This document shows positions 4,068 to 36,814 of a stretch of DNA of 45,482 nucleotides, piece after piece. The stretch's first letter is position 1. Each line of letters opens with the position of its first letter. The position numbers and the translations under genes are program-made. The notes below the pieces were generated by a model, which was not told the DNA's origin, searched no databases, and saw only the letters and a list, made by a program, of their open reading frames with translations. This DNA comes from Thermoplasmata archaeon (GTDB lineage Archaea; Thermoplasmatota; Thermoplasmata; Lutacidiplasmatales; UBA184): assembly GCA_030037815.1 (NCBI GenBank), contig JASHPZ010000020.1, forward strand, positions 1 to 45,482, in the 5' to 3' direction.

Positions 4068-4612
4068 GCGCGATGGAAGGACGGACGAACACGTCGGAAG
4101 AAGCCCGAACGGGGCTCTGCCTCGACTGCGGCGCCACGTTCCCGAACCAGGAAGCGCTCGAGCGCCACCGCGCGGCCGCGCATGCGCCGGCGCCCGAGGA
4201 AGATTCGATGCCGCGCCGGTCGGCATCGCCCGAACGGCGGCGCACGGCCGAGTCGATGGACGTCGGCCCGCCGGTCGCGGACGACGGGGCGGACCGCGAC
4301 CCGACGGGTCGTACGGCGCCGAAGCCCGACCCGCGGATGCGGGTCGCGGAGCCGGAGCGCGCCACCGAGATGGAGTCGGAAGGACGTCAGTCGGATCGGG
4401 ACGCGCCCGACGAGAGCCGGCCGAACGCGGGCGGCGACGAAGCGGTCGACGCGTCGAACCGTCCGGGTAGGCCGTTCGGGCGGGCGGTTCACGCCGGGCC
4501 GAGCGGACGAACGGAGCGCGCGGTCCCCGCCGACGAGTCGGACCCGACCGACCGACCGGAGCACGCGAAGGCTCCCAAACCCGGCCGACGTCCGCCGAAC
4601 CCGGCGGACTAG
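4064..4612 (+). CDS. C2H2 zinc-finger protein with long acidic/disordered tail
   Basis: The 182-residue protein has one C2H2 finger near residues 18-40 (CLDC ... RHRAAAH, C-x2-C-x12-H-x4-H). It is followed by about 140 residues of low-complexity sequence rich in Asp, Glu, Arg, Pro and Ser, probably disordered. The start is fixed by a strong AGGAGGT ribosome binding site (4047-4053). It could tether a flexible acidic tail to nucleic acid, but no function is known. Its TAG overlaps the TAG of the convergent receiver gene in a shared palindromic CTAG at 4609-4612. Confidence 0.65.
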   Translation: MSAMEGRTNTSEEARTGLCLDCGATFPNQEALERHRAAAHAPAPEEDSMPRRSASPERRRTAESMDVGPPVADDGADRDPTGRTAPKPDPRMRVAEPERATEMESEGRQSDRDAPDESRPNAGGDEAVDASNRPGRPFGRAVHAGPSGRTERAVPADESDPTDRPEHAKAPKPGRRPPNPAD

Positions 4613-5097
4613 CTCCGGCGCTCGGGCTCCCGAACCCGTTCCCCGACGCCGGGCCCGACGAGCGTCCGCGCGAGCACGTCGTCCAGGCGGGCCGCCAAGA
4701 GCGGCTTCACGATCACCTCGATCGGGAACTCCGCGCGAAGGGCCGCGATCCGCGCCTCGGACGGGTCGAACGCCGTCGAGAGGATGACGCGCAGCTCGGG
4801 GTCGCGGGCGAGGAGCTGCCGGGCGAGCTCCACCCCGTCGTGGGGCCGACCGGACGCGGCCCGTCCCGACGGCTCCGGGCTCGGGGCGGGCAGCTCGACG
4901 TCGATGAACGCGAGGTCGGGGTGCCATTCGTCGAACAGCGCCAGGGCCTCCTCCACTGTGCCGGCGGCCCGCAGGTTCGGGATCTCGGCACCGAGCCGGA
5001 GCAAGAGGTCCTGGAGGAGGCGCCGGGCCGAGGCGGAGTCTTCGATGAGGAGGATGCGGCCCGCGTTCGCCGCGGGACGCGCGTCCCGCCGGCTCAT
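4609..5097 (-). CDS. Response-regulator receiver protein (third gene of phosphorelay operon)
   Basis: This is a single CheY-like receiver of 162 residues. The acidic pair is E19/D20 (LLIEDS), the phosphoacceptor is D66 (AFIDVELP), the conserved hydroxyl residue is near T108 and the lysine is K131 (IVKPL). An insertion after the phosphoacceptor strand (about 70-87, Pro/Ser/Gly-rich) makes it longer than a minimal receiver. There is no output domain, so it probably works by protein contact or as a phosphate sink. The ATG overlaps the stop of the preceding receiver by ATGA. It is expected to be phosphorylated by the kinase two genes upstream. Confidence 0.85.
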   Translation of the reverse strand: MSRRDARPAANAGRILLIEDSASARRLLQDLLLRLGAEIPNLRAAGTVEEALALFDEWHPDLAFIDVELPAPSPEPSGRAASGRPHDGVELARQLLARDPELRVILSTAFDPSEARIAALRAEFPIEVIVKPLLAARLDDVLARTLVGPGVGERVREPERRS

Positions 5098-5528
5098 CGG
5101 CCGCCCCCCCGGGCGGCCGAGGGGGGCGGAGCGGGGTCCGATGCGGGGGAGGCCGCGGGGAGGACGGTGCGGAGCAGACGCTCGACGCGTTCGAGCAGGA
5201 CCGCCCGCTGGATCGGCTTCGTGAGGTAGTCGTCGCAGCCGGCGATCAGCGCCTTCTCGGCGTCGCCCGGCATCGCGAACGCCGAGAGCGCGAGGATCGG
5301 AAGTTCCGCGGTGTCGGGCCGGGCCCGAAGCTCCCGCGTGAGCGCGTAGCCGTCCTTCCCGGGGAGCGCGACGTCCATGACCACCAGGTCGGGGACTGCC
5401 TCCGCGATCGCCCGCTCGGCGGCGCCCGAGTCGCCCGCGGGCACGACCTCGTAGCCGCGCGACTGGAGGATGACGGTCGTCAGCTTGAGGTTCTGCGGGT
5501 TGTCCTCGACCACGAGGATGCGGGTCAT
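5094..5528 (-). CDS. Response-regulator receiver protein (second gene of phosphorelay operon)
   Basis: This 144-residue CheY/Spo0F-like receiver has all key residues: E8/D9 (VVEDN), phosphoacceptor D52 (VVMDVALPGKDG), S82 and K104 (LTKPI). A Pro/Ala-rich tail of about 20 residues follows, with no DNA-binding domain. It sits between the kinase and a second receiver. Its ATG overlaps the kinase stop (ATGA at 5528-5525) and its TGA overlaps the next ATG. The arrangement suggests a kinase feeding two stand-alone receivers, which is common in archaea and mesophilic euryarchaea. Longer in-frame extensions run antisense or overlap the kinase and were discarded. Confidence 0.88.
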   Translation of the reverse strand: MTRILVVEDNPQNLKLTTVILQSRGYEVVPAGDSGAAERAIAEAVPDLVVMDVALPGKDGYALTRELRARPDTAELPILALSAFAMPGDAEKALIAGCDDYLTKPIQRAVLLERVERLLRTVLPAASPASDPAPPPSAARGGGR

Positions 5529-17121: not shown

Positions 17122-20004
17122 TTACTTAGCGGGCGCGAGCGGGGTCTCGTCCCACGGTTCGGGGACCGCGCCGGGGACGGTCATGATCACGAGCGACCGC
17201 GACTCGCGGCGGGCCCGGCGCAGCGCCCCGAGGAGCGTGACGAGCGCGACCCCCAGGATGACGGCCGCGGCCGAGAGGCCGAGCGGCACCCAGAGGCTCG
17301 TGGTCGCGGGGGGCGCCGTGTCCGCGGAACCGATCGAGAACGCGAGGGTCCGGTTGATCGGCGCGCCGGCGACCGTGAAGTTCCCCGACGGCGGCGTGAC
17401 GGAGTACGGGCCGACCGACCCGCCCGTGCCGAGGATCCCCGACGTGTAGGCGTAGCTCCCGTTCGGCTCGTAGAACGTGATCGCGCCGTCCGTCGTGTTC
17501 TGGCCGAGGCCGTCGACGGTCACGGCCCAGTCCGTGTCCGGCCCGAGGCCGGACTGGTCGAACACGACCGGGTAGACGACCGCCTGGACGAACTCCGCGA
17601 CCTCGGTGGTCGGCCCGACCAGCGTCAGGTTCGCGGGGTCGGCCGCGCCGGTGTAGCTTCCGTTCCCGACGCCCGTCCACGCCGCGAATTCGCTCGACGG
17701 ACCCGACAGGGCGGCGAGCGTCGGATGCGAGCCGAGGTCGTACCAGCCCGACGCGGGGGTGACGGTGCCCGCCCCGGCGGGCGACGTGTCCACGCTCAGC
17801 GCGAACTGCGTCAGGTAGGAGATCGAGAGCCCCGTGGCGGCGCCGGTGACGTTGAGCACGCCGTCGCTGCCCGCGGCGGAGTACCGGACCCCGGCGGGTC
17901 CGGCCACGTAGGGGGTCGCCGCGAACGAGTAGCTGCCGTTCGGCTCGTCGATCGCGATCGAGCTGTTCGACCCCGACACCGAGATGCCGTTCACGACCAC
18001 CGTCCAGCCGGAGCCGACCGGTAGCCCGACCTCCTGGAACGTCACGGGGAACTCCCCGAGCGCGTAGAACTGCGCGACCTCGCGGACCGGGCCCACGACC
18101 TCGATCGAGGTCGGGTCGGTCGGTCCGCTGTAGGCGCCGGCGCCCTGGCCGGCCCACGACGCGAACACCCAGCCTTCGGTCGGCGCGGCGCTCAGGTTGA
18201 CCGTCGACCCGGCCGGGAACCACGCCGCCTCGGGGGCGACGGTCCCGGCGACCGACGGGGAGGCGGCGCCCGTGACCTCGAACTGCTGGACGAACCGGAC
18301 GGAGAGGTTGAGGGAACTGTTCCCCACGGTGAACGTTCCCGTGGAGGGCGTCGCGACGAACTCGGTGCCCGGCGGTCCGTCGGTCAGGGCGGGGACGGAG
18401 AAGGAGTAGGAACCGGCCGACTCGAACACGGTGACGAGGCTACCGTTCGAGGTCGTGTTCGCCCCGTTCACGGTGACCGTCCACGCGGTGCCGTTCGGGA
18501 GGCCGACTTCGCCGATCGCGACCGGGAACCCGTCGACCGACATCAGACGGTCGATCCACGTGTGCCACGGGTCGGCGACCGTGTTGTTGCGCATGTACTC
18601 GCCGACGACCCAGAACGTCCGATTGTGGAACGGGGCGAGGACCGCCGCCGAGAAGTTGCCGAAGGCGCAGACACCGGTCGCGCACGACGGCGCCCGGTCG
18701 GGTTCGCCGCCCGCCTTGAGCACGGTCGGCGCCTCGAGCGTCCCCGGAACGTCCGCGCCCGTGCGGCCGGTGACGGCGACGCTCGGGAACTCGGTAGCGG
18801 AGCTCTCGTCGAACACCACCACCAGGTTCTGGCGTGCGTCCAGGGCGAGCGCGGGGTAGAGGTCGTACGTCCCGGCCCCCGAGCTCCAGTTGAAGCTCGC
18901 GACCAGCGACGCGTTCGCGGTATCGACCTCCCAGAGGTGGAGGCACGCCCGAGCCGCCGAGTCGTTCCCCGGCACGCAGGCCGCGTCCGCCGCCGCCCAC
19001 AGGTCGGTCCCGTCCCAGACCGCGCTCTGGACGGTCGCGGGCCCGGCGGCGAGGAGCGCGCTGCTCCCCTCCTGGGTCGCGTTCGGAGCGGGCGCGAGTC
19101 CCGAGGTCAGGTTGGCCACGACCGAGATCCCGTTCGGGGACGGGGGCACCCCCGCGACGGTCAGGAGCTCGAGCGAGGAGTTCCCCCATCCGTCGCTCGC
19201 GAGGTAGAGGAACGAGGAGGGCGCGACCGGGGTCGCCGGCACGAGCGGGCCCCAGAACGCATCGGGGCCGCTGACGGACGTCGCGACGCTCGTCCCGGCG
19301 ACCAGCGCCGACTTGTTGGCGGCGAGCACTTCGGAACCCGCGAAGGCCCCGGCGTGGAACGTCTCGACCGTCACCACGAGCGCGCCCGAGTCGACCGCGA
19401 GGCGGGGGGCGGCGAGCACGTCGCCCGCCGGCGGGGGGGCGAAGTAGTGGACGCGCCAGTCGGCCGTCGGGTCGCCCGTCACGCTCGCCCCGAACACGAC
19501 CTGGTCGGCGCTCACGTCCAGGGCGGAGACGAACCAGCGCAGGGTCGCGGAGTCGTACACGACCTCGGGGGACGCGAGGACGTCCGACCCCGCGTCGAAC
19601 AGCGTATCGAGGGAGCCGTTCGCCAGCACGGTCTCGTTCGACGTCCAGATCCGATACGCCGTCTCGGTGAGCTCGACCACGTAGTTGTCGTCGGTCGCGA
19701 GCGACGGGTCGGGCGCGACGCACGTGCCGGTACAGGCGGCGGACGCGTCGAGTCCGCTCCAGGCGCGCACCGAGTAGATCCCGCCGGGGCCCGAGAGTTC
19801 GGGCGAGACGCCGGCCACCGCCGCTCCGGGTCCCTCGGCGGCCGCCGACGGCGCCCCGGGTGCGGCGGGGGGACCTACGGCGGCGACGCCTCCCGAGAGC
19901 GAGACTCCCGCGAGGGGGGCGTCGGGCCGAACGGACCCGAGGCCCGAAACGAGGAGTCCCACGACGACTGCGGATGCCAGTGCGGCGAACCACGCGCGAT
20001 GCAT
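17122..20004 (-). CDS. Large membrane-anchored surface protein: propeller-like head, ETGLP and InlB B-repeat domains
   Basis: The 960-residue protein has a signal peptide (about 1-25) and a low-complexity Ala/Pro/Gly linker. A head at about 75-490 resembles a beta-propeller or sialidase-like fold (PDPSLATDDNYVVELTETAY; ASPEVVYDSATLRWFVSAL). The stalk alternates ETGLP-type domains (IGEVGLPNGTAWTVTV, FQEVGLPVGSGWTVVV, FDQSGLGPDTDWAVTV) with two divergent InlB B-repeats (AGTVAPEAAWFPAGSTV and AGTVTPASGWYDLGSH, each followed by a W.G.G.G.Y.G pattern). A C-terminal helix (about 905-928) and basic tail anchor it. It is likely an adhesin or glycan-binding surface protein. A GATATATA box lies about 55 nt upstream of the ATG. 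Confidence 0.82.
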   Translation of the reverse strand: MHRAWFAALASAVVVGLLVSGLGSVRPDAPLAGVSLSGGVAAVGPPAAPGAPSAAAEGPGAAVAGVSPELSGPGGIYSVRAWSGLDASAACTGTCVAPDPSLATDDNYVVELTETAYRIWTSNETVLANGSLDTLFDAGSDVLASPEVVYDSATLRWFVSALDVSADQVVFGASVTGDPTADWRVHYFAPPPAGDVLAAPRLAVDSGALVVTVETFHAGAFAGSEVLAANKSALVAGTSVATSVSGPDAFWGPLVPATPVAPSSFLYLASDGWGNSSLELLTVAGVPPSPNGISVVANLTSGLAPAPNATQEGSSALLAAGPATVQSAVWDGTDLWAAADAACVPGNDSAARACLHLWEVDTANASLVASFNWSSGAGTYDLYPALALDARQNLVVVFDESSATEFPSVAVTGRTGADVPGTLEAPTVLKAGGEPDRAPSCATGVCAFGNFSAAVLAPFHNRTFWVVGEYMRNNTVADPWHTWIDRLMSVDGFPVAIGEVGLPNGTAWTVTVNGANTTSNGSLVTVFESAGSYSFSVPALTDGPPGTEFVATPSTGTFTVGNSSLNLSVRFVQQFEVTGAASPSVAGTVAPEAAWFPAGSTVNLSAAPTEGWVFASWAGQGAGAYSGPTDPTSIEVVGPVREVAQFYALGEFPVTFQEVGLPVGSGWTVVVNGISVSGSNSSIAIDEPNGSYSFAATPYVAGPAGVRYSAAGSDGVLNVTGAATGLSISYLTQFALSVDTSPAGAGTVTPASGWYDLGSHPTLAALSGPSSEFAAWTGVGNGSYTGAADPANLTLVGPTTEVAEFVQAVVYPVVFDQSGLGPDTDWAVTVDGLGQNTTDGAITFYEPNGSYAYTSGILGTGGSVGPYSVTPPSGNFTVAGAPINRTLAFSIGSADTAPPATTSLWVPLGLSAAAVILGVALVTLLGALRRARRESRSLVIMTVPGAVPEPWDETPLAPAK

Positions 20005-26458: not shown

Positions 26459-27757
26459 ATGCCGGTCCGGTCGCTGGTCGTCCCGTCCGTGGTCGTCGCG
26501 CTCGCCGTCGTGCTGGTCTCGGGCGCCGTGTCCGGGGGGGCGGCCCTGCGCCCCGGGTCCGGGGGACTCGAGACCACGCGCACGCAACAGACCGTGACGG
26601 CCTCCTTCGAGTACCAGTCGTTCTGCCCGACGCGCCCGGCGCTCGGGCCCTGCGCCAACCTCGGGGGGTTGACCACCGCCGGCCCGACCCCACGGATCCT
26701 CGGCGACGCGGAGGCGAACTTCGACGCGCTCGGGTCGGGTCCGGGTGCGAATCAGCTGATCGAGTGGAACGGGTCCGATCCGAGCTGGTCGGCGGCCACG
26801 AACCTCTCGTGCGTGCCGACCGTCACCGTCGCGTCCACCGGGGGGACTGCCGCGTTCGTCGGGTGCTCCAACGCGGCGGGAACCGCCGGGTGGGTAGTGG
26901 GCGTCGACCTGACGACGGGAGCGGCCTTTGCGAACCTGTCGATTCCGAGCGGTTTCCCTTCGATGGCGTTCGACCCGGCCCGGGACCTCCTGCTCATCGC
27001 GTCGCCCCCCCGCACGCTCGAGGCGGTCGCGGCCTCCAACCTGACGGTCGAGCGGATCGTGAACACCAGCGCGGTCCTCGGAGGCGGCCTCACCGACGGT
27101 CAGAGCGCGCTCGCCTTCGACCCGTTCTCGAACACGTTCCTCGTGCCGCTCGCGAGCGACGCGGTCGACTCCCTCGACCCGACGACGCTCGCGGCGGTCG
27201 CCCACCTTCCGACCAACGGCCCCGTGAACGCGACCGCGGTCGACTCGGACTCCCGCCAGGTCGCCCTCGCGGTCGGGACCTCGGCCGACACGCTCGAACT
27301 CGTCGACGCGACCGACTTCGCGCCGACGGGCGCGGTCGCGGTCGGCGCCACCTGTCCCTCCTCCGGTCCCCCGCCCGCTCCGTCGGAGATCCTCGACGAC
27401 CCGGTGCACGGGGACCTGTACGCCCTGGGGTTCGCGGGCTGTGTGGTCGCGGTCAACACGTCGACCGATACGGTCGCCGGGACGCTCGCGGGCCTCGCGG
27501 ACCCGTTCGTGTCCGGCGCCTACGTGCCGGCGACCGACGCCGTGTGGGAGTGCTCGACCCCGTTCTCGGAACTGCCGTCCGGCGGCATCCTGGACCTCGT
27601 CCATGGGCAGAAGGTGACGGTCACCTCGGTGTTGGGGCTGCCGTGGCCCCTGGCCCTCCTCGCCCTCGCGGCGGTCGTCGGCGGAGCGGTCGGTGCGCTG
27701 CTCTACGGGACGCGGCGAACGCTCGGACGCCGATCGACTTCGCGCGAGCCGCGCTAG
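26459..27757 (+). CDS. Membrane-anchored beta-propeller-like surface protein
   Basis: The 432-residue protein has a signal peptide (about 1-28), an extracellular region of repeated four-stranded units and a C-terminal membrane helix (about 395-417) with a basic tail. Units such as SALAFDPFSNTFLVPLASDAVDSLDP and DPVHGDLYALGFAGCVVAVNTSTDTV (first parts near 218 and 320) resemble YVTN/Lactonase-type propeller blades. The role is probably in adhesion or binding rather than catalysis. The ATG has GGGAG upstream. The TAG shares a CTAG tetranucleotide with the stop of the convergent Kelch/PKD gene. Confidence 0.75.
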   Translation: MPVRSLVVPSVVVALAVVLVSGAVSGGAALRPGSGGLETTRTQQTVTASFEYQSFCPTRPALGPCANLGGLTTAGPTPRILGDAEANFDALGSGPGANQLIEWNGSDPSWSAATNLSCVPTVTVASTGGTAAFVGCSNAAGTAGWVVGVDLTTGAAFANLSIPSGFPSMAFDPARDLLLIASPPRTLEAVAASNLTVERIVNTSAVLGGGLTDGQSALAFDPFSNTFLVPLASDAVDSLDPTTLAAVAHLPTNGPVNATAVDSDSRQVALAVGTSADTLELVDATDFAPTGAVAVGATCPSSGPPPAPSEILDDPVHGDLYALGFAGCVVAVNTSTDTVAGTLAGLADPFVSGAYVPATDAVWECSTPFSELPSGGILDLVHGQKVTVTSVLGLPWPLALLALAAVVGGAVGALLYGTRRTLGRRSTSREPR

Positions 27758-30051
27758 GCCGAGGGCGGTGCGGGCGGGCCCCCCTCGGGAGGGCCCGGCG
27801 GCGCGGATCGCCGACGCGCCACGACGTAGGCGATGAGGAGGGCGACCACCGCCACCCCGGCGCCGAGCCCGAGCCAAACGTAGGGGGACGTTCCGGACGA
27901 CGAGTTGGGTCCGGTGCCCGCTTGGACCGTGATCGAGACGCTGCGGTTCACCGAATGTCCGTCCGAATCGTTGACGAACAGCGTCGCCGTGAACGTTCCC
28001 CCGCGCGCGTAGGCGTCGCTCGCGTTCTGGGTCGACGCGCTCGTCCCGTCGCCGAACGACCAGTGGAACGCGTAGGGAGGAGTGCCGCCGCTCGGTTGGG
28101 AGGAGAAGTCGACGGTCTGGTTCACCTGCGCCGTCGAAGCGGACGCCCGGACGGTGACCGTGAGCGGGGCCGCACCCACGTCGACCGTCACGTACCGAAC
28201 GACGAAGGAGCCGTTCGCATCCGAGACGTTGAGCGACACGTTGTACGCGCCCGCCGCAGCGTAGGCGTGGCTCGCGTTCTGCGTGGTCGCGGACGACAGG
28301 TCGCCGAACCGCCACAGGAACGTGTAAGGCGGAACGCCGCCGCTGGGGCGGGAACTGAAGTTGACCGTCTCGCCGACCGTCGCGGAGGTCGGGACCGCCG
28401 AGATCGTCACCCCGAGGGGAGGTGGACCGGAACTCTGCACCGTGACGACCACGTAGCCGTCCGCCGTCGTACCGTTCGCGTCCTCGACCGCGAGGGTCAC
28501 GTTGAACACGCCCACCGTGGCGAACGCGTGCACCGGGTCCGCGGCCGTCGAGCCGTTTCCGTCGGCGAACGACCAGTTGTACGTGAACGGCCCGGTCCCC
28601 CCGGTCACGTTGGACGTGAAGGAGACGTTCTCGTCCCGTTGAGCGAGCGTGGGGGCGGCCGTGACCGTCACGGAGAGAGGGGTCCCACTCGAGAAGACCT
28701 GGACGACGACCGAGTCGGTGGCCGTCGCGAGCGCGGAATCGGTGACGGTGACCGTCGCGGTGTAGTTGCCGGCCGAGCCGTAGGTGTGGGAGACGTTCTG
28801 CCCGGTCCCGTTGCTCGTCGAGTCCCCCCACGCCCAGGCGAATGCGTACGGCGGCGACCCGCCGGTCGGGCTGGCCGAGAAGGCGACGCTCGCAGCGACC
28901 CCGACGGGGTTCGGGGCGGCGTGCGCCGTCACCCCGAGCGGCGACGACGCGGGGAACGTCAGCTCCCACGTGGCGTTGTACGCGCCGTCCCCCTGGAGCA
29001 TCACGACGCAGTGGTCGGACGCGTCGTACGCCATCTGGCCCCAGATCGTCCCGGCGGGGGGCGCGGGGGAGACGTCGTAGGCCGTCCATGTCCCCCCCTG
29101 GAACACCCACGTGTCGGCATAGTACGAGTTCGCCGGGTAGCCGCCGTACATCACCACCGCGGAGACGTCCGGGTCGTAGACCATCCCCGCGCCCGCCCGG
29201 GCATCCGGCGAGTTCGGGGGGGTGACGTTCACCCACGTGCCCGACGCGAACGTCCACGTGTCGTTCAGGTACTGCGTCGGCCCAAGCCCGCCGAACATCA
29301 CCACGTCGTGGTCCGCGAGGTCGTCGACCTGCGCCTGGTCGTACCGTCCACCGGGCGCGGCCGTCGGGGTGAGCTTCGTCCAGGTCCCGGCGTGGAACTG
29401 CCAGGTGTCGTTCGAGTAGGTGGTGTTCGTCCCGCCGCCCTGGTTGCCCGCGAACAGGAGGACCGTTCCGGTTTCGGTGTCGTACGACATCGAGCCCCAG
29501 AAACGGCCCGTCGGCCCGCCGGCGGCCGTGACGTTCGTCCAGACCCCGGCGCGGTAGACCCACGTCTGGTCGTTGTACGAACCGGTCGGGGCCGGGCCGC
29601 TGCCGCCGAACAGAACGACCTCGTGGTCCGACGGGTCGTCGGCCAGGAAGAATCCGAACCGGGCGCTCGGCGAGGCGGGCGTGGTGCGATTCACCCACGT
29701 GTGGTTCGCGAACGACCAGGTGTCGTTGTAGTAGGTGTAGGGGATCCCGTTCGTGTTCTCGCCGCCGAACAACAGCGTGTAGTTGTCCGAGGAGTCCCAT
29801 ACCATGCCGGCGCTGCGCCGCGGCGGCGGCGCCGGGCCGCTCGTCACGTTCGTCCAGACGGGCGTCCCGACGTTGGGCGAGGCCGGAGCGGTGGAAACGG
29901 GCCCGATCGTCCCGGCGACCGTCGCGTGCAGGGCCGGCTCCCTCGCGGGTGCGGCCGCCGGCGCCGTCGCGCCTCCGCTCCCGAGGAACATGACCGTCAC
30001 AAGCGCGACGACGAGGACCCCGGCGAGCCGGGGCGTGGTCCGGTGCGTCAT
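27754..30051 (-). CDS. Kelch/PKD membrane-anchored surface protein
   Basis: The 765-residue protein has a signal peptide (about 1-30). A Kelch-type propeller follows (about 60-370), seen from repeated pairs like NYTLLFGGENTNG and EVVLFGGSGPAP, each followed by NDTW(x)F/Y and GxWTNVT. Four PKD-like domains come next (about 375-715, e.g. PPYAFAWAWGDSTSNGTGQN and PPYTFLWRFGD). A C-terminal helix (about 728-748) and a Pro-rich tail anchor it. Kelch heads on PKD stalks are typical archaeal surface proteins for binding partners or glycans. CTACATAG (30074-30081) lies about 27 nt before the ATG, predicting a leaderless mRNA. No catalytic motif was seen. Confidence 0.88.
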   Translation of the reverse strand: MTHRTTPRLAGVLVVALVTVMFLGSGGATAPAAAPAREPALHATVAGTIGPVSTAPASPNVGTPVWTNVTSGPAPPPRRSAGMVWDSSDNYTLLFGGENTNGIPYTYYNDTWSFANHTWVNRTTPASPSARFGFFLADDPSDHEVVLFGGSGPAPTGSYNDQTWVYRAGVWTNVTAAGGPTGRFWGSMSYDTETGTVLLFAGNQGGGTNTTYSNDTWQFHAGTWTKLTPTAAPGGRYDQAQVDDLADHDVVMFGGLGPTQYLNDTWTFASGTWVNVTPPNSPDARAGAGMVYDPDVSAVVMYGGYPANSYYADTWVFQGGTWTAYDVSPAPPAGTIWGQMAYDASDHCVVMLQGDGAYNATWELTFPASSPLGVTAHAAPNPVGVAASVAFSASPTGGSPPYAFAWAWGDSTSNGTGQNVSHTYGSAGNYTATVTVTDSALATATDSVVVQVFSSGTPLSVTVTAAPTLAQRDENVSFTSNVTGGTGPFTYNWSFADGNGSTAADPVHAFATVGVFNVTLAVEDANGTTADGYVVVTVQSSGPPPLGVTISAVPTSATVGETVNFSSRPSGGVPPYTFLWRFGDLSSATTQNASHAYAAAGAYNVSLNVSDANGSFVVRYVTVDVGAAPLTVTVRASASTAQVNQTVDFSSQPSGGTPPYAFHWSFGDGTSASTQNASDAYARGGTFTATLFVNDSDGHSVNRSVSITVQAGTGPNSSSGTSPYVWLGLGAGVAVVALLIAYVVARRRSAPPGPPEGGPPAPPSA

Positions 30052-30101: not shown

Positions 30102-30866
30102 CTAGATCGCGTTGACCGCGAACCCCAGGACGAATCCGACCATCACGCCGAGGTAGACGATGCGGTTCCGCCGGAGCGAGAGCTCCCGCGTGTCGAGCGG
30201 GCGGAACGCGACCCGGAGCATCGGCAAGAGCGCGTAGGCGATCGCCCCGATGGCGAGGGCGTCGAACACGAGGACGAAGTCGGTGCTGCTCCAGAAGTAC
30301 CCGATGAACGCGCCGACGAGCGTGGGCACCCCGCTGAGGAAGAAGAGGCCGAGGATCACGCCCAGGCGCCGGCTCTCGGGGCGGCCGAGGAACGGGGCCG
30401 CGATCGGGAACCCCTCGGTGACGTTCTGCAGGAAGAATCCGAGGAAGACGACGGCGAGCACCCCGACCGCCCCGATCGACCAGTTGACGCCGAAGACCAG
30501 CCCCTCGGTGAGGTTCTGGAGGCCGATCCCGAGCGCGATGATCAGGGCCATGCGCTCGGGGGCGGACTCGGGGCGGGAGCCGCTCGACACGTTGTCGACC
30601 GCGAACAGGGCCAGGAACGCCCCGACGAACGCCACCCCGAACAGGAGCGAGTAGCCCGCGTCGGCCACGTAGCCGTTCGGGTACAGGATCGGCGCGACGT
30701 CACTGAAGATGTCGGCGAGCAGGAAGACGAGGATCCCGATCGCCCCCGCGTTGAGCGCCGTCGCCCAGCTCCGCTGCGCCCGCTTCGCGTAGACGACGGG
30801 CAGCGAGAGAAAGATCGAGAACGCCATCGCCGCCGTGAGCGCGAGGAAGGTTGCGAACTCCTGCAT
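30102..30866 (-). CDS. ZIP-family metal transporter-like membrane protein
   Basis: The 254-residue protein has about eight membrane helices in the ZIP arrangement. The paired transport motifs in the two central helices are LGIGLQNLTEGLVFG (112-126) and FFLQNVTEGFPIAAPF (144-159). ZIP transporters of Zn or Fe usually have HNxxEG and HExxx(E/H) here. Both leading His are Gln in this protein, but the Asn and Glu that ligate metal are kept, so specificity may differ or transport may be altered. An Asp-rich segment lies at 50-60. The gene is divergent from an HTH/ferritin-like regulator, which supports a metal role. The ATG has TTAACC about 31 nt upstream. Confidence 0.82.
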   Translation of the reverse strand: MQEFATFLALTAAMAFSIFLSLPVVYAKRAQRSWATALNAGAIGILVFLLADIFSDVAPILYPNGYVADAGYSLLFGVAFVGAFLALFAVDNVSSGSRPESAPERMALIIALGIGLQNLTEGLVFGVNWSIGAVGVLAVVFLGFFLQNVTEGFPIAAPFLGRPESRRLGVILGLFFLSGVPTLVGAFIGYFWSSTDFVLVFDALAIGAIAYALLPMLRVAFRPLDTRELSLRRNRIVYLGVMVGFVLGFAVNAI

Positions 30867-30893: not shown

Positions 30894-30900
30894 CTTAACC
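30894..30900 (-). promoter_or_regulatory. TATA-like box of the ZIP-like transporter gene
   Basis: On the minus strand GGTTAAG is centred about 31 nt before the ATG at 30866. The operator at 30931 lies roughly 35 bp upstream of it. Confidence 0.35.
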
Positions 30901-30930
30901 GCTTCGACCGTGAAGTGGCCCACGGTAGGG

Positions 30931-30941
30931 TCACAGCGTGA
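30931..30941. promoter_or_regulatory. Operator-like palindrome TCAC-AGC-GTGA (distal)
   Basis: A perfect inverted repeat with 4-bp arms and a 3-nt spacer. The centre (30936) is exactly 42 bp from that of the proximal copy at 30972-30984, about four helical turns. Confidence 0.55.
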
Positions 30942-30963
30942 AATTACGACACCTCGATATCGC

Positions 30964-30970
30964 TAATTAT
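30964..30970 (+). promoter_or_regulatory. TATA box of the HTH/ferritin-like regulator gene
   Basis: TAATTAT is centred 26 nt before the ATG at 30993, predicting a leaderless transcript. The proximal palindrome begins two bases after it. Confidence 0.5.
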
Positions 30971-30971
30971 C

Positions 30972-30984
30972 TTCACAGAGTGAA
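30972..30984. promoter_or_regulatory. Operator-like palindrome TTCAC-AGA-GTGAA (proximal)
   Basis: A perfect inverted repeat with 5-bp arms and a 3-nt spacer, lying between the TATA element and the regulator start at 30993. This is the usual place for an autorepressor to bind in archaea. Confidence 0.6.
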
Positions 30985-30992
30985 CGACCGCG

Positions 30993-31844
30993 ATGTCCCG
31001 GACGTCCGACCGACCGCACCGTCCGCGCGCCGACCGCCCGACCCTGGCCCCCGCCGGGTGGGTTCCGCTGTTGCAGGCCCTGGTCGCCCGGGAGCTGGTC
31101 GAGCAGGAGGGGCTCTCGCTCAAGCGGGCGGCCGACCCCCTCGGCCTTGCCCCCTCCGCGGTCTCGCAATACCTCTCGGGGCGTCGACAGGCCCGCCACT
31201 TCGCCGAGTACTCCCAGAACGATGCTGCGCAGCGACTCGCGCGCGATGTCGCGCACGCGCTGCTCGCGGTCCCGCCCGGTTCGCCGGAGGCGACGTCCCT
31301 CTTGCTCGACGGGGCGCGACGGCTCGCGCGGGTGGACCGGCCGCCGACGGCCGCTCCCGGCGGCGTCGTCGAGCGGGTCGGCCCTCCGGCCGCCCGGGCC
31401 TCGCGGGAGATGAGCCGCTGGCTCCGCCACCGGATCCGGGCCGAACAGTCGGCCGTGACCGCGTGCATGGTCCTCGCCCAGCGGGCCCGCGACGAGGTGA
31501 CCCGGGCGATCTTTCGGCAGATCGCGTCCGACAGCCTGCGGCACGCCGAGATCGTGGCGTCGTTGGCGACGTACCTCGACCGCGGAGTGTCCGGAGCGTA
31601 CGCCTCCGGCATCACTCGGCGGGACGTCGAGTCGTTGATCGAAGCGGAGCGTCGCGCCGAGTCCCACGAGGCGGGCGAGGGGTTCCAGGAGCTCCGCGGA
31701 ACGCTCGCCGTGCTGGTCGAGAGCATGGAGGACGACGAGCGCAAGCACACCGCGTTGCTGGAAGGGCTCTTGCGCTCGGGGTTCGCCGCGCCGCGCGGCG
31801 CCACCCGCGGGCGCCGTCGCGGGACCTCCGATCGCCCGCCGTAG
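30993..31844 (+). CDS. HTH regulator fused to a ferritin-like four-helix domain
   Basis: The 283-residue protein has an N-terminal helix-turn-helix (about 26-65, EGLSLKRAADPLGLAPSAVSQYLSGRR) like the archaeal COG2522/XRE-type regulators. After a linker, the C-terminal half (about 135-262) has the helix pattern and acidic residues of ferritin-like proteins: E151 (RAEQSA), D180/H184 (SDSLRHAEIV), E219/E223 (EAERRAE) and E249/H252 (DDERKH, an ExxH). The first canonical ExxH is changed to DxxxH, so the metal site may be unusual. It may bind iron or another metal and control the divergent ZIP-like gene; two palindromes lie between them. The ATG is leaderless relative to the TATA box at 30964. Confidence 0.78.
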   Translation: MSRTSDRPHRPRADRPTLAPAGWVPLLQALVARELVEQEGLSLKRAADPLGLAPSAVSQYLSGRRQARHFAEYSQNDAAQRLARDVAHALLAVPPGSPEATSLLLDGARRLARVDRPPTAAPGGVVERVGPPAARASREMSRWLRHRIRAEQSAVTACMVLAQRARDEVTRAIFRQIASDSLRHAEIVASLATYLDRGVSGAYASGITRRDVESLIEAERRAESHEAGEGFQELRGTLAVLVESMEDDERKHTALLEGLLRSGFAAPRGATRGRRRGTSDRPP

Positions 31845-31850
31845 CGGGGG

Positions 31851-32237
31851 TTACGAGAAGAACTCCTTCATCGGGTTCCAGTAGAAGTCGTACCATCCCT
31901 GATCGACCCCGTCGCGGAACTTCGCCGGGATGCCGACGTGGTCGACCACGAGCCGGCAGCCCTTCCCCTTCGGCTTCAGCTCGAGCCGGAGGACCGAGTA
32001 GTCGCCCGCCGGCCACTCGCTGGCCCGCCACGCTTGGACAATCCGCTTGCCGGGGACGAGTTCGAGGTTGTAGCCCGAGATGTAGGTCCCTCCGGCGCGG
32101 AATCGACCGCCTTCCTTGCGGCTCATCCGCGCGGACTCCCCCGTGAACCGCGCGTGCCGCCGGCTGTCGAGGTACGCGTCGTAGACCTCACGCGGCTTCA
32201 CGGGAAAATCGACTTCGTGGTGGACCGGTTTGCACAT
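31851..32237 (-). CDS. SRPBCC/AHSA1-like (START-fold) protein
   Basis: The 128-residue protein matches the AHSA1-like SRPBCC family: HHEVDFPVKPREVYDAYLDSRRHARFTG, GGRFRAGGTYISGYNLELVPGKRIVQAWRASEWPAGDYSVL, and GCRLVVDHVGIPAKFRDGVDQGWYDFYWNPMKEF (first parts near residues 6, 45 and 93). The fold forms a hydrophobic pocket for a lipid or small aromatic. It is encoded divergently from an ArsR-type repressor, a pairing seen in many bacteria and archaea. AATATACT (32282-32289) could be its TATA box, 48 nt from the ATG. Confidence 0.87.
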   Translation of the reverse strand: MCKPVHHEVDFPVKPREVYDAYLDSRRHARFTGESARMSRKEGGRFRAGGTYISGYNLELVPGKRIVQAWRASEWPAGDYSVLRLELKPKGKGCRLVVDHVGIPAKFRDGVDQGWYDFYWNPMKEFFS

Positions 32238-32281
32238 CGTTCGCTCCGGGACCCGCGGGCCCCGACCGCGGATACGGACCG

Positions 32282-32307
32282 AATATACTTAACCATTTGG
32301 TTTACTA
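32282..32307. promoter_or_regulatory. Divergent ArsR/SRPBCC control region with AACC-ATTT-GGTT palindrome
   Basis: Two TATA-like elements, AATATACT (32282-32289) for the leftward gene and GTTTACTA (32300-32307, 24 nt from the ArsR ATG), flank an inverted repeat AACC-ATTT-GGTT at 32291-32302. The palindrome overlaps the rightward TATA box, as expected for an autorepressed ArsR promoter. Confidence 0.55.
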
Positions 32308-32326
32308 GGGCGTCTCGGAGTCGTCC

Positions 32327-32704
32327 ATGCGTCCGCCAGAGCGTCCGTCCGAGGAGGAGGCAGAGCTCGACCGCCTGTTCTCCGCGCTGTCGGACCCCAC
32401 CCGGCGGGCGATCCTGCGTCGTCTCGCGGTGCGGTCGGCGTCGGTGACCGAGCTCGCGGCGCCGTTTCGGATGACGTTACCGGCGGTGTCGAAACACCTG
32501 AAGGTCCTCGAGGAGGCTCACCTGCTCTCGCGTGCGGTCCGGGGACGGGTGCACAGTCTCTCCCTCTCGGGGGAACCCCTCCGCGCGGTCGAGACGTGGC
32601 TCGACCCGTTCCGTGTCTACTGGGAGACCGAGCTCACTCGACTCCGGGCCGACCTCGAACGCCATCCGCCGAAGCCTCCCGCTCGCCGGACCCGTCCAGC
32701 GTGA
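32327..32704 (+). CDS. ArsR-family winged-helix repressor
   Basis: The 125-residue protein has the ArsR signature ALSDPTRRAILRRLAVRSASVTELAAPFRMTLPAVSKHLKVLEEAHLL (first part at 20-33) and a C-terminal helix with YWETELTRLRADLE. It lacks the CxC motif of metal-sensing ArsR proteins, which fits the non-metal subfamily found beside SRPBCC genes. The DNA-binding helix TLPAVSKHLKVLEE probably reads the palindrome at 32291-32302, repressing both divergent genes. The tail is Pro/Arg-rich. Its end overlaps the convergent DUF71 gene by 71 bp. Confidence 0.9.
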   Translation: MRPPERPSEEEAELDRLFSALSDPTRRAILRRLAVRSASVTELAAPFRMTLPAVSKHLKVLEEAHLLSRAVRGRVHSLSLSGEPLRAVETWLDPFRVYWETELTRLRADLERHPPKPPARRTRPA

Positions 32705-34554: not shown

Positions 34555-35001
34555 ATGCGGTTCGAGGTCGCGGGGCTCCGGGTCCAGAACCTCGAGCGGT
34601 CGCTCCGGTTCTACACCGGAGCTCTCGGACTGAAGGTGCGCGCCCGCGGAGACACGCGGGCATGGGGAGGCGGCCTGTGGGTGCAGCTGGTCGACCCTGC
34701 GTCGCGACGCCACCTGGAACTGAATTGGTACCCTCGCACCTCGCGATTCGGCGGCCCCTACCGAGTCGGCGACGGGGTGGACCACCTCGACTTCTCCGTC
34801 GGTTCGGCTCCGCGCGCGGAGCTCGAACGGGTCTACCGACGCCTCCTCCGGGCGGGGGGCCGACCGACCGGTCTCGAACCGGCGACCACCGACGGTTGGA
34901 TGGCGAGCGTCCTCGACCCGGACGGCATCTGGATCACGATCGGACGACGCCCGACGCCGGCCGAGCGGAGGGCGATGGCGCGTTCGAAACGGCGCACCTA
35001 G
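34555..35001 (+). CDS. VOC-superfamily protein, paralogue of the 21003-21401 gene
   Basis: The 148-residue protein begins FEVAGLRVQNLERSLRFYTGALGLKV, has HLELNWYPRTSRFGGPYRVGDGVDHLDFSV and ends ASVLDPDGIWITIG. The ELNWYPRT stretch and the following RVGxxxDHxxF are closely similar to the protein at 21003-21401, so the two are paralogues. The C-terminal metal-type Glu is replaced by Thr/Ile in IWITIG, so a metal site there may be lost. The basic tail (RAMARSKRRT) is an extension. Its TAG shares a CTAG with the convergent sedolisin stop. Confidence 0.82.
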   Translation: MRFEVAGLRVQNLERSLRFYTGALGLKVRARGDTRAWGGGLWVQLVDPASRRHLELNWYPRTSRFGGPYRVGDGVDHLDFSVGSAPRAELERVYRRLLRAGGRPTGLEPATTDGWMASVLDPDGIWITIGRRPTPAERRAMARSKRRT

Positions 35002-36572
35002 CCGGAGCTCTGCAACGCCCGGAGCGCCGCGAGCAGGCCGCTCCCGTTCGGAGACCCGAGGCCCGTGCACGGGTCCCATCCGGGACCGGCGCTGTACCCT
35101 CCGTTCGAGCCGTCCGTCACGTCATGGAACGCTCCCGCGGCGCCGGCCGAGTAGAGGGCGGCGTGGACGTCTCCGACGGGGGCGCCCAACGCCTGGGCCC
35201 AGCGGGCCACGAGCGCCGCCCACATCGGCGCGACCGCGCTCGTCCCACCGAGCGCGACCGTCGCTCCGTCCACCACGATCGCGAATCCCGTCTCGGGCGC
35301 GGCGTCGCCCGCGACGTCCGGAACGCCGCGACCGGTGCCTCCGTTCGGCCCCGACGGGACGTGGGCGCCCGATTGGTAGGACGGTAGCGCGAACACCGCG
35401 CTGACGCCGCCGCCCGTGGCCCCGCCGTCGGTCGCGAGGTCGTCCCAGACGACCTCGCTCGCGATCGCCCCGGCCGAGAGCTCGAGCTTCGTCCCCCCGC
35501 AGCCGAGGACGAACGGGCTGGAAGCCGGGAAGTCGACCGCGAGCGTGCCGGTCGGCTCTCCGTCCGACGCCCCCTGGTCGCCGGACGCCGCGGTCACGGT
35601 CACCCCGACCGAGGCCGCGTCCTCGGCGGCCGAACTGAGCGCCTGCATCGCCTGGGCGGTCCACGACGGCTCGGGGCCCCCCCAACTGATCGAGACGACG
35701 TCGGGTCGGTTCGCGGTGTCGTGTACCGCGGTCGTCAAGGCGTCGAGAAATCCCTGGTCGGTGTTCGGCGCGAAGTAGACCGCGATCCGGGCGCCGGGCG
35801 CGAGCGCCCCCGCGAGCTCGAGGTCGAGGGCGACCTCCCCGTCCGGCCCGTCCGCGCTTCCCGTCGGCGCGTTCGCGGCGCCGTCGACCGAGACGTCCGT
35901 GACGGACGGGACGGCGAGGCCGAGCCCTCCGAAATACGTCGCGAGGTCCGCGGTCCGGTACCCGCCGCCGAGCTCGACCAGCCCGATGCACTGTCCCGTG
36001 CCGTCCGTTCCGGCCGGGAACTCGTAGGCCGCCGCGAGCGCGGTCGGCGTGACCGTCGCCGCCTCGGCGAGCGGGCCGCGGAACCGGCGCACGTGGGGGC
36101 GCGCTTGCGGCCGGTCGTCCAGGCCGAAGACGCCCTCCACCACGCCCGCGAGCCCGGCGGGCACGTGCACCGGCCCGACCCGCCCCCGGAACGTGCCGGA
36201 CGCGTGGGCGAACCGGCGCAGGCGAACACCGAACGCCTGCTCCAGGGTTCGGAGGGAACCGGTCAGTTCGACCGTGCGACGGGCCACGCTCTCCGCGCGC
36301 ACCTCGAGACCGGACGCGGTCGCGAACTCGCGGACCCGTGCGAGGTCGTCCTCCGAGGCACCCCACCGGCGCGCGAACGACTCCCGCTCGAGGAGTCGGA
36401 GCCGCGTCGGCGCGCGGTCTACCGGCGCCCTCCGCCGCACAAAGACGGAGACGTGTCCGGTCGCGGTCGGCAGGACCGGGCCCAAGTCCCGGGCGCCGGG
36501 CGGAACCCGGCGCTCACTGCCGGGGACGGCGACGGGAGCGCTCCCGGAGCCGCGCACCGGCCGACCTCTCAC
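34998..36572 (-). CDS. S53-family (sedolisin/kumamolisin) acid serine-carboxyl peptidase
   Basis: The 524-residue protein has a pro-kumamolisin activation domain (about 15-150) and an S53 catalytic domain. The catalytic pair is E246/D250 (GEVALDLE), the oxyanion D332 lies in ASGDQGASDG and the nucleophile S445 lies in GGTSAVAPMW. The Ca-binding end GYSAGPGWDPCTGLGSPNG follows. These enzymes are active at low pH and normally secreted after self-cleavage. No clear signal peptide is seen. The GTG at 36572 overlaps the TGA of the preceding 81-residue gene (GTGA), so the two are translationally coupled. The longer frame to 36767 overlaps that gene and is rejected. Two other acid-protease families lie nearby. 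Confidence 0.87.
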   Translation of the reverse strand: MRGRPVRGSGSAPVAVPGSERRVPPGARDLGPVLPTATGHVSVFVRRRAPVDRAPTRLRLLERESFARRWGASEDDLARVREFATASGLEVRAESVARRTVELTGSLRTLEQAFGVRLRRFAHASGTFRGRVGPVHVPAGLAGVVEGVFGLDDRPQARPHVRRFRGPLAEAATVTPTALAAAYEFPAGTDGTGQCIGLVELGGGYRTADLATYFGGLGLAVPSVTDVSVDGAANAPTGSADGPDGEVALDLELAGALAPGARIAVYFAPNTDQGFLDALTTAVHDTANRPDVVSISWGGPEPSWTAQAMQALSSAAEDAASVGVTVTAASGDQGASDGEPTGTLAVDFPASSPFVLGCGGTKLELSAGAIASEVVWDDLATDGGATGGGVSAVFALPSYQSGAHVPSGPNGGTGRGVPDVAGDAAPETGFAIVVDGATVALGGTSAVAPMWAALVARWAQALGAPVGDVHAALYSAGAAGAFHDVTDGSNGGYSAGPGWDPCTGLGSPNGSGLLAALRALQSSG

Positions 36573-36814
36573 CGAGACGCCGGCGCGGCGGCGCGCAGGA
36601 TGTCGCCGAGTTGCTCCGGCGGCAGGAGGTGACGGAGGGTCATCTCGCTCTTGGCGCCGGCCGGATGCGCGCCGGCGGCCGCCCCGTACCAGAAGCAGGT
36701 CTGCAGCGCCCGGGCGAGGGCATCCGGTCGGTCGGGGCGGCGCAGGGCTCGCGCGATGTCCCGCCATCGGTCGCGGATCTCCTCCGGCGTGCTCTCCCAG
36801 AGTTCCAGCGGCAT
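36569..36814 (-). CDS. Small helical protein coupled to the sedolisin gene
   Basis: The 81-residue product is predicted helical: LELWESTPEEIRDRWRDIARALRR, ALARALQTCFWYGAAAGAH, LRHLLPPEQLGDILRAA (first part at 3-15). I recognise no family. It follows the EamA transporter by 21 nt and has a GAGGGA ribosome binding site. Its TGA forms a GTGA overlap with the sedolisin start. The position suggests a partner or regulator of the protease, but this is only inferred from context. Confidence 0.65.
   Translation of the reverse strand: MPLELWESTPEEIRDRWRDIARALRRPDRPDALARALQTCFWYGAAAGAHPAGAKSEMTLRHLLPPEQLGDILRAAAPASR

Follow-up and report, generated by a model that had tools for sequence, protein, structure and literature searches.

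Metalloregulators are grouped by the fold of their sensor. Those of the DtxR/MntR/IdeR type are one-component proteins in which an HTH is combined with a separate metal-binding helical part, and which act at palindromic operators at metal-importer genes. Ferritin-like proteins of the rubrerythrin group use the ligand set E ... ExxH ... E ... ExxH, and di-iron oxidases carry a helix-B glutamate. The HTH and dimerisation domains of the DtxR/MntR/IdeR metalloregulators are treated in passages of a review (PMC7762939), and excerpts of PMC12022348 present plant BRUTUS and BTSL2 as hemerythrin-like iron sensors, in which a helical di-iron domain forms part of proteins controlling iron uptake. Full-text searches of openly available journal literature returned no paper whose title or abstract opening describes a fusion of an HTH to a ferritin-like domain, nor is one mentioned in passages of PMC9287336, PMC10354927, PMC7762939, PMC5898192, and PMC7465337.

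Here we describe such a fusion, encoded in a stretch of 45,482 nucleotides from a Thermoplasmata archaeon (the window, by which we mean this whole stretch of analysed DNA; Table 1). In two archaeal groups, the regulator is often encoded beside metal-importer genes that bear a matching DNA site. We consider it probable, at roughly 70%, that the protein is a one-component transcription regulator of metal import, with iron the most likely metal and manganese a possible one.

Table 1. Features of the regulator locus, in window coordinates.
Feature	Position	Strand	Basis or remark
Divergent ZIP-like transporter, 254 aa	30102..30866, ATG at 30866	-	ORF, Pfam, NCBIfam, alignment
ZIP TATA-like element, GTTAA on - strand	30895..30899	-	sequence; inference
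Half-site TTCAC (GTGAA on + strand)	30910..30914	-	between palindrome and ZIP TATA-like element
Operator-like palindrome GTCACAGCGTGAA	30930..30942, centre 30936	.	1 mismatch to TTCAC-N3-GTGAA; counterpart of the relatives' conserved site
Regulator TATA-like element TAATTA	30964..30969	+	sequence; inference
Second, exact palindrome TTCACAGAGTGAA	30972..30984, centre 30978	.	between TATA-like element and regulator ATG
Regulator gene	30993..31844	+	283 aa; XRE-like HTH at the N-terminus and ferritin-like domain at the C-terminus, joined by linker helices
HTH region, residues 20-66	31050..31190	+	Pfam, predicted-structure helices, family-profile match
Ferritin-like domain, helices 132-164, 168-196, 209-226, 236-262	31386..31778	+	Pfam, alignment, AlphaFold, Foldseek, profile search

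Results

An HTH half joined to a ferritin-like half

The HTH appears in Pfam as matches to HTH_31 and HTH_3 at residues 33-67 (E 2e-4 and 8e-4, both below the curated cut-off), in the AlphaFold model as helices 20-38, 43-50, and 54-62, and in a profile search with the regulator family as a match to a HigA antitoxin HTH in the PDB (E 0.002-0.003). Two relatives show a weak match to the Fe_dep_repress HTH, also below cut-off (L185, E 0.018; L189, E 0.0036); the metal-binding and dimerisation domain of DtxR proteins (Fe_dep_repr_C) has no Pfam match in the window protein at E up to 1. The predicted structure of the whole regulator has a mean pLDDT of 86.0 and a pTM of 0.60.

For the C-terminal half of the window protein, Pfam reports Rubrerythrin (PF02915) over residues 147-256 at 25.4 bits, above the cut-off of 22.8; four relatives score below that cut-off (L187, 21.3; L160, 19.0; L185, 18.8; L189, 12.8), and the best NCBIfam match, to the EncB ferritin-like cargo family, lies far below its own. 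Modelled alone, the ferritin-like domain is predicted by AlphaFold as four helices at high confidence (mean pLDDT 91.8, pTM 0.80). Foldseek against the PDB returned no match below 0.001, the best value for the domain being 0.11, and its best 50 rows are mostly ferritin-like proteins, bacterioferritins, rubrerythrins, sulerythrins, or Mn catalases, together with six rows of CopM and one uncharacterised protein. The highest probability, 1.00, went to 5n5e, a two-helix encapsulated ferritin, and superpositions of the domain reached a TM score of up to 0.46 by query length at an rmsd of about 10-20 Å. We read this pattern as one in which the predicted helix hairpins match, the packing of the two hairpins within one chain being less certain. 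A profile search matched the mini-bacterioferritin 9qq4 at E 2e-4, followed by designed helix bundles (E 4e-4, 0.013). The assignment to the ferritin-like fold is a good one. Sulerythrin is domain-swapped, and the bundle of the regulator may close within one chain or, as in that protein, between two.

An earlier note on this DNA, made from its letters alone, had read the protein as an HTH joined to a helical domain with ferritin-type residues. The fusion is present, with Rubrerythrin above cut-off, the HTH profiles below it, and the ligand-type residues conserved; the four-helix C-terminal half that the note expected is recovered as four high-confidence helices, an outcome that does not extend to a closed single-chain bundle.

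Distribution of the regulator family

A whole-genome search places a regulator match in 77 of the 106 genomes of the window's order, including a few that are HTH-only or fragments (for example, G010, G012, G095, and G098). Across named contigs, a scan with the single window protein gave no match; an alignment-based scan gave 79 loci, 71 close and 8 distant. The close loci are mostly titled Thermoplasmata archaeon, along with one Candidatus Lutacidiplasma silvani, one bacterium, and one Euryarchaeota, and the distant loci, at 27-34% identity, belong to Pyrobaculum, Thermoproteus, a Thermoproteales bin, and Calditenuaceae/Aigarchaeota. The Calditenuaceae class has a match in 39 of 44 genomes (7 of them over the HTH only) and the Pyrobaculum class in 19 of 81.

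Of 400 genomes drawn from the window's class, 200 have a match (E up to 1e-5). In families other than that of the window, the class matches listed cover mostly the HTH alone. Exceptions come from two families: two f11 genomes carry divergent full-length copies (L295, L296), and in f25 a close regulator copy (E 9e-106) on contig C176 of G179 (4559-5344) is either a transfer or a misassigned contig. From a phylum draw of 389 genomes, 19 have a match with E no higher than 1e-15, every one of them in the window's family. Sought in other Thermoplasmatota, the domain fusion proves to be a conserved family, with full-length relatives in the Calditenuaceae and Pyrobaculum classes.

Candidate metal ligands

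The ferritin-type residues listed by the earlier note (E151, D180/H184, E219, E249/H252) are all invariant in an alignment of 51 proteins, comprising the window protein, 42 close relatives, and 8 distant ones; the invariant columns also include R147, Q176, S181, L182, R183, D248, and K251. A further set of 39 distant loci comprises 20 of the Calditenuaceae class, 17 of the Pyrobaculum class, and 2 of f11; it includes genomes of the 8 distant aligned proteins, and its proteins are roughly 30% identical to the window regulator. All 39 keep E151, D180, H184, E249, and H252, and 38 keep E219. This conservation suggests that the ferritin-like half would bind metal.

The standard ligand set is missed at one position. 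Helix B reads D-S-L-R-H, with Ser181 at the place of the usual glutamate and beside the invariant Asp180, and a profile alignment sets the helix-B glutamate of 9qq4 onto Ser181. Position 181 is Ser in 35 of the 39 distant loci and Cys in the other 4, all of them among the 20 Calditenuaceae-class loci. Because Ser181 replaces the usual helix-B glutamate, the candidate site may hold one metal or none.

Residue 223 differs between lineages, being Glu in all 34 or nearly all order rows, His in 14 of 20 Calditenuaceae-class loci, Met in 17 of 17 Pyrobaculum-class loci, and Ser in both f11 copies. From the alignment, it is possible that this position tunes metal choice.

Transporter genes beside the regulator

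As the earlier note stated, the regulator is divergent from a ZIP-like gene. The start codons are at 30993 (+) and 30866 (-). By its sequence, the partner is a divergent ZIP-like protein, matching Zip (PF02535, E 0.003) and ZupT (NF003243, E 6e-6), both below cut-off. Its N118/E121 and N148/E151, candidates for the TM4/TM5 N and E residues of ZIP transporters, are invariant in 53/53 aligned ZIP rows (the N, E, and G of QNLTEG and QNVTEG); the position we take to be that of the TM4 histidine of ZIP transporters is a glutamine in the window protein.

A ZIP gene stands beside the regulator in 55 of 75 order loci, 30 divergent, 24 tandem upstream, and 1 downstream, counts that are not independent because loci share ancestry and in which L088 enters as tandem on a 35-aa ZIP remnant. 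In 6 further order loci, an Nramp gene is divergent from the regulator (Pfam-confirmed for L040); the window's own assembly, 89% complete, has no Nramp match. Neither transporter is directly beside the regulator in the other 14 loci, that is, in 12 plus the contig-edge fragments L104 and L105; in one of the 14 (L037), an Nramp gene lies 3 kb off, and L078 ends at a contig edge, so that its upstream neighbour falls outside the contig. On a quick tree of 73 rows (L103, L104, and L105 left out), the neighbour state requires at least 13 changes, and Nramp 4, which argues that the linkage between regulator and transporter was re-formed. One regulator branch with no adjacent ZIP or Nramp (L049, L051, L055, L086) follows a conserved gene, presumably TenA/PqqC-like by its look.

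Among more distant relatives, both f11 loci have a ZIP gene in divergent orientation to the regulator, its product 43-46% identical to that of the window. Of the 20 Calditenuaceae-class loci, 5 have FeoB encoded divergently from the regulator, all 5 with FeoB Pfam domains, and a partial FeoB at a contig edge adjoins L343. Eight of the 20 have a phosphonate-type ABC importer as neighbour (PF12974, Pfam-checked for L333 only). Within about 5 kb of the 17 Pyrobaculum-class loci, tblastn found no match to ZIP, Nramp, or FeoB queries. A conserved 145-aa protein is encoded near the regulator in 14 of these 17 loci (L353-L366), 13 times within 0.5 kb and once at 1.5 kb; its best Pfam match, DUF1138 at E 0.11, is below cut-off. 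The linkage to transport that the earlier note proposed is supported, the recurring neighbours being metal importers of the ZIP, Nramp, and FeoB families. That three unrelated families of metal importer stand beside one regulator family is our main functional argument.

Next to the regulator, at 31851-32704, are an AHSA1-like gene (-) and an ArsR-type HTH gene (+) by Pfam, neither of which was found in the 75 relatives' loci (tblastn, E up to 1e-3), and the minus strand at 32634-33503 matches Diphthami_syn_2 (PF01902). By translation, 27754-30051 (-) encodes a long, apparently secreted protein with a C-terminal hydrophobic stretch and what we take to be repeated PKD-like segments, and 34998-36767 (-) presumably encodes a secreted sedolisin-type peptidase. 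Neither Rfam nor a tRNA scan gave a hit in the window.

Operator-like sites in the window and its genome

The two palindromes that the earlier note described between the divergent genes are where it placed them, with centres 42 bp apart, and the proximal one does sit between TAATTA and the regulator ATG. The conserved unit is the 30930-30942 palindrome together with GTGAA at 30910-30914, and the 30972 palindrome is an extra: among 31 divergent loci, only the window has two palindromes at up to 1 mismatch, so the phased pair put forward by the earlier note finds no support as a general arrangement. Three loci of other arrangements (L040, L067, L094) have two palindrome matches each, but more than 100 bp apart.

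Taken by itself, the window shows no significant surplus of palindrome matches at up to 2 mismatches: there are 8, the mean is 6.2, and 31 of 100 shuffles reach that number. A scan of the whole 1.57-Mb assembly, which the earlier note had proposed as a check, finds the exact palindrome once, at the 30972-30984 site by the regulator, and up to 1 mismatch at 15 places against 4 for a reversed control. Of 13 other one-mismatch sites in this genome, four were placed in their gene context (L276-L279), and none of these is beside a recognised metal transporter; three are inside genes and L278 is at the end of an ORF. The palindrome is raised above chance by its conservation in relatives.

Operator-like sites in relatives

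Counting the window among them, 31 loci are divergent; TTCAC-N3-GTGAA with up to 1 mismatch is present in 26 of these (15 exact), in 18 of 24 tandem loci (12 exact), and in 8 of 20 loci with no ZIP (4 exact), all operator counts being given without correction for shared ancestry. For the tandem loci, 17/21 is the fairer figure, with three contig-edge rows dropped (L061, L062, L089), where a stretch other than the ZIP promoter was scanned; the one-mismatch match of L089 lies in such a stretch. The single locus in which ZIP follows the regulator has no palindrome upstream of the regulator (0/1). In these loci, control patterns gave 0-1 and other spacers 0-3. The operator-like palindrome of the earlier note is conserved in relatives, in the form of one palindrome plus a half-site: TCAC follows 15-17 bp past the palindrome toward the transporter in 41 of 45 loci (24/26 divergent and 17/19 tandem, the tandem exceptions being L089 and L097), usually just 5' of the TATA-like element. 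This count covers loci that have a palindrome with up to 1 mismatch; where there were several, one followed by TCAC at 11-19 bp was preferred.

The exact composite of palindrome and half-site occurs at 47 places in 41 of the 106 order genomes, compared with 0 for the control; the window's genome is not among these carriers because its palindrome has one mismatch. The composite is present in 36 of 77 genomes with a regulator match and in 5 of 29 without (p 0.004), the latter being G002, G025, G062, G078, and G083, three of them under 75% complete. Sixteen composites away from a regulator match were fetched, of which 5 precede ZIP, 7 Nramp, and 1 SBP_bac_6, with 3 unassigned (one inside a coding frame). 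Stand-alone ZIP genes with a composite operator were observed in other genomes at L264, L265, L267, L273, and L274. Counted by hand from the table and without regard to the half-site, exact palindromes number 90 across the 106 genomes, and control matches number 17. Away from the regulator, exact palindromes lacking the half-site at L286-L290 and L292 are inside coding sequence, five of the six in seemingly one conserved gene, and are probably chance matches; L282-L285, L293, and L294 have no recognised metal transporter beside them.

Upstream regions of the Calditenuaceae class contain a relaxed form of the pattern, TnAC-N3-GTnA, at 31 sites in 15 of 20 loci, where 300 shuffles gave a mean of 1.05 and a maximum of 5; spacers other than 3 gave 0-5 sites. 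Among the controls, TA.C-N3-G.TA had 12 sites, spread over 9 of 20 loci, which is explained by TAAC-N3-GTTA fitting this control as well as the pattern itself; other 3-bp controls gave 0-1. The f11 loci have 4 sites in 2/2 (shuffles 0.10, maximum 2), and the upstream regions of the Pyrobaculum class show no such operator-like site (0/17).

Discussion

From the recurring palindrome, the conserved residues, and the neighbouring genes, we infer the following course of regulation. A regulator dimer would bind TTCAC-N3-GTGAA through its XRE-like HTH, as the recurrence of the palindrome beside the gene suggests, and the C-terminal helices would bind metal, probably iron, at the conserved candidate ligands, so that DNA affinity may differ between the metal-loaded and the empty protein. 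The palindrome at 30972-30984 would cover the regulator's own promoter, and its position between the TATA-like element and the gene start suggests self-repression. The other palindrome and the half-site lie just upstream of the predicted ZIP promoter elements, through which the regulator may control the importer by repression or activation. Both activators and repressors are known to act from sites upstream of an archaeal TATA, the position that the ZIP-promoter sites have, so either sign of control would fit. Of the earlier note's reading as a one-component metal or redox sensor, the fusion, the ligand-type residues, the conserved palindrome, and the metal-importer neighbours stand, and paired phased palindromes as a general feature do not. 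Weighing against the preferred reading are the replacement of the helix-B glutamate by Ser181, the order loci that lack an adjacent ZIP or Nramp, the phosphonate-type importers of the Calditenuaceae class, the Pyrobaculum-class loci with neither operator nor importer match, and the five genomes that carry the composite but gave no regulator match.

The redox half of that reading would have a rubrerythrin-like site become oxidised and alter DNA binding, with metal import as the output since free iron harms under oxidative stress. Rubrerythrin, sulerythrin, and mini-bacterioferritin are indeed among the fold matches, and Cys158, two turns from E151, is present in 67 of 74 order rows (a set from whose 75 loci the contig-edge fragments L104 and L105 were dropped, and in which only the ferritin-like part of the frame-broken L103 is meaningful). 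However, this cysteine is absent in 39/39 distant loci, these proteins have Ser or Cys where di-iron oxidases carry the helix-B glutamate, and the neighbours identified are importers, with no peroxidase gene beside the operator sites examined, which makes a sensor of oxygen or peroxide unlikely in our view. The serine at position 181 could also be taken to mean that the ferritin-like domain is metal-free and serves dimerisation only; the protein would then be an ordinary regulator of the XRE type, acting locally on transport genes and answering another ligand, as might suit those members encoded beside a phosphonate-type ABC importer or unknown genes. The retention of the other ligand-type residues in distant loci at roughly 30% identity, and the convergence of the neighbours on ZIP, Nramp, and FeoB, leave such a protein quite improbable.

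The preferred reading, a regulator of metal import, can be given a more specific form, which we offer tentatively, at somewhat less than even odds. The proteins would constitute an archaeal metalloregulator family that spans two deep groups and senses iron directly at an altered ferritin site (E / DS..H / E / ExxH), where Ser takes the place of the helix-B Glu. The site is perhaps formed between swapped subunits, so that metal would determine the dimer and how far apart its two HTH heads sit on TnAC-N3-GTnA. Residue 223, which is Glu, His, or Met depending on the lineage, might adjust the choice of metal. We considered whether the family replaces DtxR and rejected this, as DtxR-domain proteins are present in 91 of the 106 order genomes; the regulator is thus not the sole metal regulator and would work alongside them. 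On contig C3 of G071 (18035-19311), a DtxR-domain match is about 0.3 kb from the ferritin-like regulator.

If the preferred reading is right, a ferritin-like sensor on a DNA-binding protein adds one sensor fold to the metalloregulators, and a storage or oxidase fold has been reused as a gene switch, in parallel to the hemerythrin-like iron sensors of plants. It also supplies a testable regulator and operator sequence for metal uptake in Calditenuaceae-class archaea and in those Thermoplasmatota that are relatives of Candidatus Lutacidiplasma, and because homologues occur in named Pyrobaculum genomes, experiments with a thermostable protein are feasible.

The regulator resembles the DtxR/MntR/IdeR proteins in being apparently one-component, in the palindromic operator-like sites at metal-importer genes, and in joining an HTH to a separate helical part that here would bind metal; unlike them, the window protein has a ferritin-like sensor half and no Fe_dep_repr_C match. 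With rubrerythrin, sulerythrin, the mini-bacterioferritin 9qq4, and the encapsulated ferritin 5n5e, it shares four (predicted) helices and the E / H / E / ExxH pattern, whereas the joined HTH and the change of the helix-B glutamate to Ser, with an adjacent invariant Asp, set it apart from the ferritin-like superfamily. Throughout the class, its HTH half has matches in open frames about 100-200 aa long, archaeal stand-alone HTH proteins that we take to be of the COG2522 kind, and these matches do not cover the ferritin-like half. The nearest functional parallel seen is that of the hemerythrin-like iron sensors of plants, as presented in excerpts of PMC12022348. BRUTUS and BTSL2 are plant proteins with a hemerythrin-like domain and an E3 ubiquitin ligase output, whereas the output of the archaeal regulator would be DNA binding.
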